Assembly (NCBI RefSeq): GCF_037201915.1
Contig: NZ_CP147505.1
Coordinates: forward strand, 930,001 to 994,000
Reading direction: 5' to 3'
DNA length: 64,000 bases
Source of the DNA: Haloplanus sp. CK5-1
GTDB taxonomy: Archaea > Halobacteriota > Halobacteria > Halobacteriales > Haloferacaceae
Positions 6,568-32,062 of this stretch are shown here, piece by piece (the first letter of the stretch is position 1; each line of letters starts with the position of its first letter). The position numbers were made by a program, and so were the translations under genes. The notes beneath the pieces are model-generated. The model saw only the letters and a program-made list of their open reading frames with translations, did not search any database and was not told the origin of the DNA.

Positions 6568-6640
6568 GTCCGGGTTAGGGTAGTGGTTATCCTTCAGCCT
6601 TGTGGAGGCTGAGACGCGGGTTCGATTCTCGCACCCGGAC
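6568..6640 (+). tRNA. tRNA-His (anticodon GTG)
   Basis: A 73-base cloverleaf. With the first G taken as the extra G-1 typical of tRNA-His, the acceptor stem TCCGGGT pairs with ACCCGGA and G-1 pairs with the final C73. The anticodon stem CAGCC/GGCTG encloses the loop TTGTGGA with anticodon GTG at positions 34-36. The T arm GCGGG-TTCGATT-CTCGC has one G-T pair. The D stem is short (GGG/TCC). No intron is seen and CCA is not encoded. The 3' half and its flank recur in degraded form at 14345, 14457 and 14567, marking it as an integration site. Confidence 0.93.
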
Positions 6641-7183
6641 CTTTCTGCCGACGAACGCACGTGAGTAAACGAAAGCTCGTACCGCTGGCGCACGACCTCC
6701 GGCAGAGCCGTGAACGCGGGTACACGACCGACGACGGCGAACGGATCGAGGGCTCCGGTGTGGGGCTGCGCCGGTCGTCAGGAGCAGCGCAACGGCCGAA
6801 ATCATGGCTCCAGAAGGAGGTATTCCGGAACGAACTCTCCCGTCGCGGACAGTCGATCGTCAACGTCATCGAGGTGGATACGACTCACCGCTGACTGGAC
6901 AGTCACGTCACTTCGACGATCGCGTTCGTGAGAAGTCCCGTGCCAACGTCGATGCCGGGCGCTGGGGACCTTTCGACCTACGCGGACACTAACAGGATGC
7001 CGAATGCGGATTTCGTCGGTCGATTCGCGCCGTAGACCTGCCCGGGCCGAGGCCCGTCGGGATGTCGTCGTGGAATCCGCCAGCACCGACCGGAACGAAC
7101 CGGGACCGGGCGGAGCGAGGCGGGCTACACGGGGACCGAGTTCGTTAGCCGAGGATTTCCGGGCAACTGGGCTCAGCTGGCGG
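6641..7183. other. Gene-poor left end of the island after tRNA-His
   Basis: These 543 bases separate tRNA-His from the first permease gene. The first 25 bases (ending cgtgag) are the tRNA flank that is copied near 14400 and 14480. Open frames exist on both strands but none has a convincing start, acidic composition or recognisable motif. An integrase gene would be expected here for a tRNA-targeted element and none is visible, so it may have been lost. Confidence 0.5.
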
Positions 7184-12672: not shown

Positions 12673-13785
12673 CTACCAGTCGACCTCGGCCGTGGACGTG
12701 ACCTCGTACTCGTCGAGGGCGTCCATATCGGGTTCGAACCCGAGTCCGGGCTCCTCGGGGAGTTCGACCTGGTTTCCGTCGATGTGGGGCGGGTCGTCGA
12801 ACAGCTTCTCCCCGACCCTGTACATGATGTAGTGGTACTCGACGCGCCACCCGTTCTCCATGCCGGCGTGGAGGTGTGCGTTGTGGTGTGGCCATCCTCC
12901 GCCGTTGGCGATGTCGAGGTTGAACCCCTGCGCGAGGTGCGCTATCTTCCGACCCTCGGTGTACCCACCGTTGTAGACGACGTTCGGCTGAACGATGTCG
13001 ACCGCGCCCCGCGTCATCAGTTGGCGGTGGCGGTAGCGACCCCCGTCGTTCTGTCCGGCGGAGATCGGGATCGTCGTCCGTTCCCGGAGCTTCGAAAGAA
13101 GCTCGGGGTCGTTGGCGTAGACCGGCTCCTCGAACCACGTGATGTCGTACTCTTCGAGCCGTTCGCAGAGCTTGATCGCCTGGTTGACGGAGAACTCGTG
13201 GTTGGCGTCGATCATCAGTTCCACGTCGTCGCCGACGGCCTCGCGGACCGCGGCGACCCGGGCTTCGTCCTCCGGAAGATCGTCCGCGCCGTTGATCCCG
13301 ACTTTCATCTTCAGTCGCGTCTCGCCCTGCGAGGCGAAGTCGGCCGCCACTTCCGCCAACTGCTCACGGTTGAAGTTCTTCAGCCCGAAGGTGACGTAGG
13401 CGTCGACCGGGTTCTGTGCGCCCCCGAGGAGCCGCCAGACCGGTTCGCCGTGGTACTTTCCGGCGATGTCCCACAGGGCGATGTCGACGGCGCTCATCGC
13501 GGAGTGCCAGACGCCGGTCTGGTACCGTGGGTTGATCTCCAACTGTGACTGCTTGTAGATACGCTCGGTTTCGAGCGGGTTCATCCCCTCGACTAGCGGG
13601 CCGACCTCTTCGTTGATCAGCGAACGCACCCCGAACCACTGTGGTTTCGCCGCCACCCCGTGTCCGGTAATGCCCTCGTCCGTCTCGACCGCTGCGACGA
13701 CCACCCGACGACGTTTCACTTCGTCCCGAAGTGGAACGTCGACAGGTACGAGATGCGTCGACGCTGTAACATTGGTAACTTCCAT
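12673..13785 (-). CDS. Mandelate racemase/muconate lactonizing family enzyme, probable sugar-acid dehydratase
   Basis: A 370-residue enolase-superfamily enzyme. The N-terminal capping domain is followed by the barrel with a K159-x-K161 catalytic pair (RLKMKVG), metal ligands D193 (MIDANH) and E219 (WFEEP), and a His-rich C-terminal region (WPHHNAHLHAG, 299-309) that can supply the acid. The third metal ligand is normally Glu in a GE motif; here it reads AGQND with Gln at 245. Members dehydrate aldonic or aldaric acids such as gluconate, galactonate or xylonate, feeding Entner-Doudoroff or Weimberg-type routes. It lies convergent with the sugar-binding lipoprotein inside the same island, so it probably acts on the imported sugar after oxidation. 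Substrate is not assigned. Confidence 0.85.
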   Translation of the reverse strand: MEVTNVTASTHLVPVDVPLRDEVKRRRVVVAAVETDEGITGHGVAAKPQWFGVRSLINEEVGPLVEGMNPLETERIYKQSQLEINPRYQTGVWHSAMSAVDIALWDIAGKYHGEPVWRLLGGAQNPVDAYVTFGLKNFNREQLAEVAADFASQGETRLKMKVGINGADDLPEDEARVAAVREAVGDDVELMIDANHEFSVNQAIKLCERLEEYDITWFEEPVYANDPELLSKLRERTTIPISAGQNDGGRYRHRQLMTRGAVDIVQPNVVYNGGYTEGRKIAHLAQGFNLDIANGGGWPHHNAHLHAGMENGWRVEYHYIMYRVGEKLFDDPPHIDGNQVELPEEPGLGFEPDMDALDEYEVTSTAEVDW

Positions 13786-13877
13786 GGTTTACCTCGGCTC
13801 CACGGTCACCCACCATTCATGTAAAACTTCGGCCATAATTGGTGATACTGTTCAGATTAGCGAGCTTCCGCTGAAGA

Positions 13878-14188
13878 CACCTCGAAAGCCCCGACTCGCT
13901 GGAGTCGGGGGCCTCGCTGCGCGCGCTCGCTTCGCTCGCGTGCTTACGTCGGCCGTCTTCCTCCAGCAGCGAGGGAGCGAAGCTCCCTCGGGCAATCGGG
14001 CGGCGAACCCGGAGGCTTCTGGTGACGTTCGTCAGACCTCCGGTCTGACGAGCCAGACAGATCGCAGAGCGACCTGTCGACGACGCAAGCACCGCAACGT
14101 AGTGAGGAGCGTGGTTCAAAAGAGCGCTCCGCGCTCTTTCGACCGACAGCGAGTCCCGAGAGCCGAGACGCCAGGGGCTTTCGAGGTG
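13878..14188. mobile_element. MITE-like element, 311 bases, 15-base perfect terminal inverted repeats
   Basis: The left end CACCTCGAAAGCCCC (13878-13892) is the exact reverse complement of the right end GGGGCTTTCGAGGTG (14174-14188). The inside is a chain of hairpins: CCCCGACTC/GAGTCGGGG with loop gctg (13889-13910), a GAGGGAG/CTCCCTC stem near 13972-13990, a CGTCAGACC/GGTCTGACG stem near 14030-14050, and an AAAGAGCG/CGCTCTTT stem near 14118-14140. No open frame with coding character is present. This is the shape of a non-autonomous transposon mobilised in trans. I could not identify an obvious target-site duplication directly outside the ends. Confidence 0.7.
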
Positions 14189-14344
14189 GTTCCAACTTCG
14201 ACAGCTTATCTGAACACTACCGGGTTAACGTGGCGGGTTTTTATTAGCATAGTCATCATCACTGAGTCCACGACGGCCTGAAAACCGCAAAATCGGAGGC
14301 AAACCGGGGCGTGAGACCGACCCTATCACATGTAAAGCATCCGA

Positions 14345-14386
14345 CTTGTAGAGGCTGAGACACGGGTTCGATTCTCGCACCCGGAC
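14345..14386 (+). repeat. tRNA-His 3'-end copy 1 (attachment-site-like)
   Basis: 42 bases match the 3' part of tRNA-His (from the anticodon loop to the final C) with two differences. The similarity continues into the flank (tttctg...gaacgcacgtgag). This is what tRNA-targeted integration leaves at the far end of an element whose near end is the intact tRNA at 6568-6640. Confidence 0.8.
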
Positions 14387-14456
14387 TTTCTGTCTGCGAA
14401 CGCACGTGAGCAGACGAACGTCTTCCGAGTATCGAATTAGGGAACGGAGTGACCGT

Positions 14457-14478
14457 GGTTCGATTTTCGCACCCGGAC
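14457..14478 (+). repeat. tRNA-His 3'-end copy 2
   Basis: 22 bases from the T loop to the 3' end match tRNA-His with one difference. They are followed by a flank (tttctgccgacgaacg-acgtgag) closer to the intact tRNA flank than copy 1 is. Confidence 0.7.
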
Positions 14479-14566
14479 TTTCTGCCGACGAACGGACGTG
14501 AGGAGGCAAAAGTCAGAACGGAGAGACCGAATCACGCCGGACGAGCGGAGTGAGTCTCACAACCCG

Positions 14567-14590
14567 TGTCGACTCCCGCACTCGGATTTA
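14567..14590 (+). repeat. tRNA-His 3'-end copy 3 (degenerate)
   Basis: TGTCGACTCCCGCACTCGG then attta is a weaker match to the T arm and acceptor 3' strand. It is probably an older decayed copy, and the assignment is tentative. Confidence 0.4.
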
Positions 14591-30562: not shown

Positions 30563-32062
30563 ATGACTACGCAGGCCCTCGAGCAGCGTGACCTCGCCGT
30601 CGTCATCGGCCTCGAGGTCCACGTCCAGCTCGAAACCGACACGAAGGTCTTCTGTGGCTGTTCGACCGAGGCGGGAGACGACGAGGAGCCAAACACCCGG
30701 ACCTGTCCGGTCTGTCTGGGGCTCCCCGGTGCGCTCCCCGTCCTCAACGAGGCGGCCGTCGAGGCCGCGGTGAAGGTCGGACAGGCGCTGGACGCCGACG
30801 TCGCCGAGGAGACCCGGTTCCACCGGAAGAACTACTACTACCCCGACCTGCCGAAGAACTTCCAGATCACGCAGTACGACGCGCCGATCTGTGCCGACGG
30901 TTCGCTCGAAGTCGCCGTCGAGGACGACCGCCGGGAGATCGGCATCGGCCGCGCACACCTCGAGGAGGACCCCGGAAGCCTCCAGCACGAGGGTGGCAAC
31001 ATCGAGACGGCCGACCACACCCTCGTCGACTACAACCGCGCCGGCACGCCGCTGATGGAGATCGTCACCGATCCCGACTTCCGGGGCCCGGAGGAGGTGC
31101 GGGCCTTCCTCGCGAAACTCGAGGAGGTGCTCGAGTACCTGGGCGTCTTCGACGCCTCCCGCGACGGGAGTCTCCGGATCGACGCCAACATCTCGCTGGT
31201 GCCGGCCGACGAGATGGCCGACGACGGCAGCGTCGACGACGCGGTCCTCGCCGACGCCAACCGGACGGAGGTGAAGAACATCTCCAGTCACAAGGGCGCG
31301 GAGAAGGCGCTGGCCTACGAGGTGACCCGGCAGAAGAACGCCGTCGAGCGGGGGCGCGGGGTCGAACAGGAGACCCGCCACTGGGACGAGAGCCGCGGCA
31401 TCACCGTCTCGATGCGCTCGAAGGAGGAGGAGAAGGACTACCGCTACTTCCGCGAGGCGGACCTCCCGCCCTTGCGGGTCTCGGACTGGACGGAGCGGCT
31501 ATCGATCCCGGAACTGCCCGACGCCCGCCGCGACCGCTTCCGCGAGGCGTACGGTCTCGACGCGGAGGCGGCGTCGAAACTCACCTCGACCAAGGAAGTC
31601 GCGGACTTCTTCGAGGACGTGGCCGATCGGTTCGACCCCGACCTCGCGGCGACGTGGGTCGCCGACGACCTGCTGGGCGAACTCAACTACCGCGACATGC
31701 AGGTGACGGACGTCGAGGGGCGCCTCGACGAGTTCGCTCGGCTGATCGAACTCGTCGACGCCGACGAGATCACGGAGAAGAACGCCCGCGAGGTGGTGTT
31801 GCGGACGATGCTCGACGAGGGGATCGGTCCGGACGCAGTCGTCGAACGCGAAGGGCTCGGGAAGGCCGACGACGACGCCGTCGCGACGGCCGTCGTCGAG
31901 GCCATCGAGGAGAATCCCGACGCGGTCGAGGACTACCACGCCGGCGAGGGGGGTGCGCTCAACTTCCTCGTCGGACAGGTGATGAGCAAGACGGGGGGGA
32001 GCGCCGACCCCGGTACCGTCAACGGCCTCCTCCGAGAGCGACTGGACGACGCCGGCGACTGA
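30563..32062 (+). CDS. gatB: Asp-tRNA(Asn)/Glu-tRNA(Gln) amidotransferase subunit B
   Basis: A 499-residue GatB. The start region VVIGLEVHVQLETDTKVFCG and the zinc cysteines (FCGCST ... TCPVCLG) are family hallmarks. YYPDLPKNFQITQYD and HLEEDPGSLQHE are signature stretches of the kinase site, and the C-terminal YqeY-like tail (EGGALNFLVGQVMSKTGG) binds tRNA. With GatA and GatC, encoded elsewhere, it phosphorylates and amidates misacylated tRNA to give Asn-tRNA or Gln-tRNA. It starts at ATG 30563; a GTG at 30548 is possible. The length fits the family. Confidence 0.97.
   Translation: MTTQALEQRDLAVVIGLEVHVQLETDTKVFCGCSTEAGDDEEPNTRTCPVCLGLPGALPVLNEAAVEAAVKVGQALDADVAEETRFHRKNYYYPDLPKNFQITQYDAPICADGSLEVAVEDDRREIGIGRAHLEEDPGSLQHEGGNIETADHTLVDYNRAGTPLMEIVTDPDFRGPEEVRAFLAKLEEVLEYLGVFDASRDGSLRIDANISLVPADEMADDGSVDDAVLADANRTEVKNISSHKGAEKALAYEVTRQKNAVERGRGVEQETRHWDESRGITVSMRSKEEEKDYRYFREADLPPLRVSDWTERLSIPELPDARRDRFREAYGLDAEAASKLTSTKEVADFFEDVADRFDPDLAATWVADDLLGELNYRDMQVTDVEGRLDEFARLIELVDADEITEKNAREVVLRTMLDEGIGPDAVVEREGLGKADDDAVATAVVEAIEENPDAVEDYHAGEGGALNFLVGQVMSKTGGSADPGTVNGLLRERLDDAGD

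Follow-up and report, generated by a model that had tools for sequence, protein, structure and literature searches.

A probable IS6-type MITE carrying twin-hairpin modules in Haloplanus sp. CK5-1

In a window of 64,000 nucleotides from the genome of Haloplanus sp. CK5-1 (NZ_CP147505.1, positions 930,001 to 994,000), we find a 378-bp element that is, with high confidence, a non-autonomous transposable element (MITE) of the archaeal clade of the IS6 family. We assign it to this class because it belongs to a repeated family with target duplications and an empty site, and because a 698-bp IS6 element has matching ends. Consistent with a MITE, it is short and free of any transposase gene, it shares its terminal inverted repeats with an autonomous element, and its copies lie at different sites. 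The main finding is a new family in a known class; the new part is its modular make-up.

Extent, ends and dispersal of the element

Comparison of copies places the tips of the element (GATACTGTTCAGATTAGC...GCTTATCTGAACACTACC) at positions 13844 and 14221 of the window (Table 1). The initial annotation had instead delimited 311 bases, 13878-14188, with perfect 15-base terminal inverted repeats. These arms are indeed exact, but given the true tips they are subterminal, and the outer repeat, an 18-base terminal inverted repeat in the window element, had been missed. The arms form the ends of a 42-nt pair that is 71% complementary, and they are flanked by an outer inverted repeat (13846-13861 and 14204-14219, 88%). 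The open reading frames that overlap the element have no Pfam family match.

The left end is identical in 16 of 18 bases to the left end, GGTACTGTTCAGATTAGT, of an IS6 element that this genome also carries, and the right end in 17 of 18 bases to the right end of an IS6 element of a congener (L096), GGTAGTGTTCAGATAAGG, as well as in 14 of 18 to the own-genome IS6 copy. The GG tip and TGTT motif of IS6 ends are found on the right as GGTAGTGTT and on the left as GATACTGTT, where most copies have GG.

Table 1. Features of the MITE in the window
Feature	Position	Strand	Remarks
Whole MITE	13844..14221	+	Boundaries set by comparing 25 copies with both ends and by their target duplications
Left terminal inverted repeat GATACTGTTCAGATTAGC	13844..13861	+	L-type end of the IS6-family partner
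Left subterminal arm CACCTCGAAAGCCCC	13878..13892	+	Long-range helix, 13 pairs invariant in 19 copies
Hairpin CCCCGACTCGCTGGAGTCGGGG	13889..13910	+	Kept in many copies
Type B module, truncated; first hairpin CGAGGGAGC-GAA-GCTCCCTCG	13970..13990	+	Second hairpin cut short rightward
Type A twin-hairpin module, complete	14024..14082	+	Hairpins 14027-14053 and 14056-14078; right-end GACG 14079-14082
Type C remnant, single hairpin AAAGAGCGC-TCC-GCGCTCTTT	14119..14139	+	Flanks GAGCGTGGTTC and CGACAGCGAG
Right subterminal arm GGGGCTTTCGAGGTG	14174..14188	+	Partner strand of the invariant long-range helix
Right terminal inverted repeat GGTAGTGTTCAGATAAGC (read on - strand)	14204..14221	-	R-type end

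A DNA search with the element returned 13 matched pieces in its own genome (3.24 Mb). Of 60 related genomes, 29 gave matches, with up to 28 pieces in one congener; all of these copy counts are BLAST pieces. Copies that could be followed from end to end range from 227 to 493 bp. Perfect target duplications of 8-10 bp enclose 13 of the 25, and three further copies have weaker ones (7 bp or one mismatch); one copy in the own genome has a perfect 10-bp duplication. These lengths agree with the 8 bp of the archaeal IS6 clade, most members of which generate 8-9 bp. In five congeners, the joined flanks of a 433-bp copy in genome G005 give an unbroken alignment of about 798-800 bases, while in G005 itself they are split at the insertion; this identifies an uninterrupted site for this copy. 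The initial annotation had proposed a non-autonomous transposon and had looked to multiple copies with variable flanks as confirmation; such copies exist in the own genome and in congeners, and together with the duplications, the uninterrupted site and the IS6 ends they bear the proposal out.

Between the left (L) and right (R) ends, the core is found either way round. Because perfect inverted arms bound the interior, it may become flipped between its ends, and copies of L-L and R-R form may result; recombination at the subterminal arms or between copies would explain both the inverted cores and these forms. Two copies in genome G003, L066 (L-L) and L067 (R-R), share a flanking octamer, CTCGCGAC, crosswise, which looks like the trace of recombination between copies. 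Scans of named genomes gave no match to a pattern of left end plus arm and 11 stretches with a shorter core pattern, one of which, in a gammaproteobacterial MAG, is apparently a chance match. Viral contigs scanned with the core pattern gave no match, nor did phage records scanned with core and module.

The window copy lies 58 bases upstream of a mandelate-racemase-type gene (12673-13785, - strand). Conservation of the neighbouring operon in a congener (G002) ends at 13835, eight bases short of the element; beyond that point G002 has other sequence and no element. The location is therefore not conserved, a point on which the initial annotation had made its choice between a transposon and an RNA gene depend. 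To the right of the element, at 14345-14391 and 14457-14579, are repeats of the tRNA-His 3' region that in G002 lie beside the tRNA and that look like remnants of integration sites. The tRNA-His gene itself is 7.7 kb to the left, 6569-6641 belongs to the same set of positions, and another repeat copy lies at genome position 919854-919897. From the break at 13835 and the tRNA-His repeats on the right we conclude that the window copy marks a rearrangement breakpoint. It has no target duplication at its flanks, which counts against the MITE reading, as does the comparison with G002, where the left flank is kept no further than 13835 and the right side differs. It is probably an old copy, and would have stayed behind at the junction of a rearrangement, just within a tRNA-His-linked region. 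A GA-cis match at 14438-14517 fell below the gathering score of that family.

An IS6-family partner in the same genome

IS6-family transposases are abundant in the own genome, and among them we found what the initial annotation had sought, an IS with matching ends. This partner (G000:C1:2027733-2028430) is 698 bp long, with inverted ends, GGTACTGTTCAGATTAGT and GGCGATGTTCAGATAAGG, and an 8-bp duplication; the copies of the congener end in GGTGCTGTTCAGATTAGC and GGTAGTGTTCAGATAAGG. Its transposase (G000:C1:2027750-2028319; open frame, 212 aa) scores above the curated cut-off of NF033587 (IS6 transposase), contains the Pfam DDE domain PF13610 (DDE_Tnp_IS240) and carries the archaeal signature E--F---K-R and W---F as described (PMC6807381). 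The MITE keeps the differences between the left and right ends of the IS, with CTGTTCAGATTAG at one end and GTGTTCAGATAAG at the other, and this pair of unlike ends is stronger evidence than a generic inverted repeat. The ends are also all that the MITE and the partner have in common, which counts against the MITE reading. About 20 other IS6 matches occur at many sites in the genome, with ends GGTCGCGTTAAGTTAG where read; most of them appear to belong to a different element.

We propose that the DDE transposase of the 698-bp IS would recognise the two unlike 18-base ends in trans and so move the MITE, whose gene-free interior would be tolerated as cargo, consisting of palindromes and of optional twin-hairpin modules that are gained and lost between copies. 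Since a specific and apparently intact IS is present in the same cell, mobilisation in trans is directly testable.

Archaeal IS6 elements such as ISHarch12-14, ISH29 and ISH15 are about 698 bp long (PMC6807381 Table 5), and the partner resembles them in its length, in ends of 15-17 bp that mostly start with GG and in duplications of 8-9 bp; they carry a transposase, whereas the window element has no gene. The two IS6-family MITEs in ISfinder, MITEHarch3 and MITEBth2 (227 and 336 bp; PMC6807381, PMC7986276), likewise have IS6-type ends without a transposase. MITEHarch3 is haloarchaeal by its name (DL31, like the ISHarch elements), and the 378-bp window element, compared with both by description rather than by sequence, may be its relative. 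To a class with these two listed IS6 examples, the MITE adds a large and widespread family.

Hairpin interior and alternative readings

The unusually dense chain of hairpins pointed out in the initial annotation is real. It comprises four perfect hairpins, each with a stem of 9-10 bp, and their summed stem length of 37 is the highest among 378-base stretches sampled along the window; 500 dinucleotide shuffles averaged 1.7 and reached at most 21. Another spot rich in hairpins, near 31400-31600, looks like ordinary protein-coding sequence. The chain derives from twin-hairpin modules, which are themselves repeats. These optional modules of about 51-62 bp are made of two perfect hairpins with a short linker and mostly three-base loops, sit at fixed sites of the core and differ between copies. 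The window copy has one complete type A module together with type B and type C remnants; the type B module is intact in L014, L015, L066, L077 and L078, and the type C twin in L086, L087 and L036. In columns 247-312 of alignment A1, most sister copies have a long conserved stem, CGCCCCTTTCAGTCCCRCCC / GGGYGGGACTGAAAGGGGC, which is missing from the window copy at that place.

Structure of this kind could also mean a conserved RNA gene or gene family in which the hairpins are the function and the inverted repeats are incidental. The single-strand fold of the whole element has a z-score of -7.6, equalled by none of 100 shuffles, the long-range arms are invariant, and 18 pairs of the interior show two-sided changes, with 0 of 500 shuffles as high and slid controls far lower. 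This strong covariation exceeds what passive cargo needs and is to be counted against the MITE reading. We nevertheless consider an RNA gene quite unlikely, as the locus is not conserved, the copies have target duplications and uninterrupted sites, modules of the interior are gained and lost, the interior can face either way between the ends, and an Rfam search of the element gave no match at the gathering score; template-switch DNA repair, moreover, can also keep perfect palindromes and so mimic covariation.

Nor do the other alternatives agree well with the copies. The 311-bp core could be an independent element nested in IS6-type ends, given that pieces of the core are also found in distant haloarchaea (e.g., L133 and L135), in which the outer ends are difficult to make out, but in every copy with a duplication it abuts the outer tips and not the core arms CACCTCGAAAG, and in Halonotius, Halobellus, Halegenticoccus and QS_9_67_17 the core still lies about 30-40 bases inside IS6-end-like sequences, making this reading very unlikely. 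The sharing of ends with the IS would also fit an internal-deletion derivative of this autonomous IS that retains parts of the transposase gene. Such an origin is extremely improbable: no transposase remnant was found, the open reading frames in the element lack a family match, and the palindromic interior has a different origin. The MITEs of Haloquadratum have likewise been described as lacking internal similarity (PMC3119063).

The type A module as a repeat of its own

The twin-hairpin modules matter more than the MITE that carries them, as the 59-base type A unit shows strong compensatory evolution and occurs in 85 of 99 haloarchaeal genomes. Besides the window module, instances include L222-L261 and L282-L309, and the type A module also occurs outside MITEs. 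The genome count comes from a covariance model, R1, that finds up to 52 modules per genome at E <= 1e-4; it was built from 18 copies, among them the window module, which itself scores 71.7 bits. In alignment A3 (84 distinct rows), which was fitted to R1 and leans towards it, 19 of 22 pairs change on both sides; none of 500 shuffles reaches any observed measure, and slid controls are far lower. The 98% paired cells of the 59-nt alignment A2 are biased because A2 was chosen partly for intact hairpins. A weaker picture than that of A2 emerges from 78 ungapped instances gathered by sequence similarity alone, in which 159 two-sided changes keep the pair, 121 break it and 219 one-sided changes are breaks. 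The compensatory changes may reflect RNA function, DNA hairpin function or template-switch repair.

Conservation of the module ends at its edges, with GNCG on the left and GACG on the right in 74 of 89 instances. It has no Rfam match at the gathering score, and we found no description of it in the literature searched. A BLAST search of 72,556 plasmids, which constitutes the whole specificity check of the model, found the module in 28 records, all from halophilic archaea. In plasmids of Haloterrigena, Natrinema and Halobellus it interrupts IS6 transposase-like genes at one site (L304, L307 and L309, at about 1201-1260), whereas Haloferax homologues have no interruption at this site, where the sequences are 75-91% alike. 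In a survey of 30 tnpB loci, the module matched next to or within a few tnpB genes. An origin from fused IS605 ends (a terminal-only PATE) found no support in these tnpB flanks, the palindromes that recur at tnpB ends being of the GCCCACGGC..GCCGTGGG types.

We lean slightly towards regarding the type A module as an undescribed micro-element of about 52-59 bp, GNCG / TTnACGAGAGCnnnGCTCTCGTnnGCCAACCAGAAnnCnnnGnnTTCTGGT-GACG, that is spread across nearly all haloarchaea and mobilised in trans by a hairpin-reading enzyme, perhaps of the single-strand IS200/REP type. Such an element would insert between genes and into further mobile elements, namely MITEs and IS6 and tnpB genes, leaving GACG at its right, and its stems would evolve by paired changes. 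If this is true, IS6 MITEs are second-order carriers of the module. Gene-free micro-elements in bacteria, the REPINs, are moved by transposition that reads hairpins, and the modules raise the question of whether this happens in archaea too. REPINs and mitochondrial double-hairpin elements both consist of two adjacent hairpins that are dispersed without a gene, a layout that the twin-hairpin modules appear to share in different hosts. Both names are used in the literature (PMC2670323, PMC3116915).

The gene-free repeats described in Haloquadratum comprise MITEs, PATEs and short mobile repeats, the last of which have other mobile elements as their targets and no known mobiliser (PMC3119063). The twin-hairpin modules are like the short mobile repeats in being gene-free and found in other mobile elements, but those are 80-110 bp long with terminal inverted repeats, whereas the modules measure about 59 bp and have two separate hairpins. 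PATEs, for their part, carry IS605-end palindromes, while the palindromes of the tnpB elements surveyed here differ from those of the modules.
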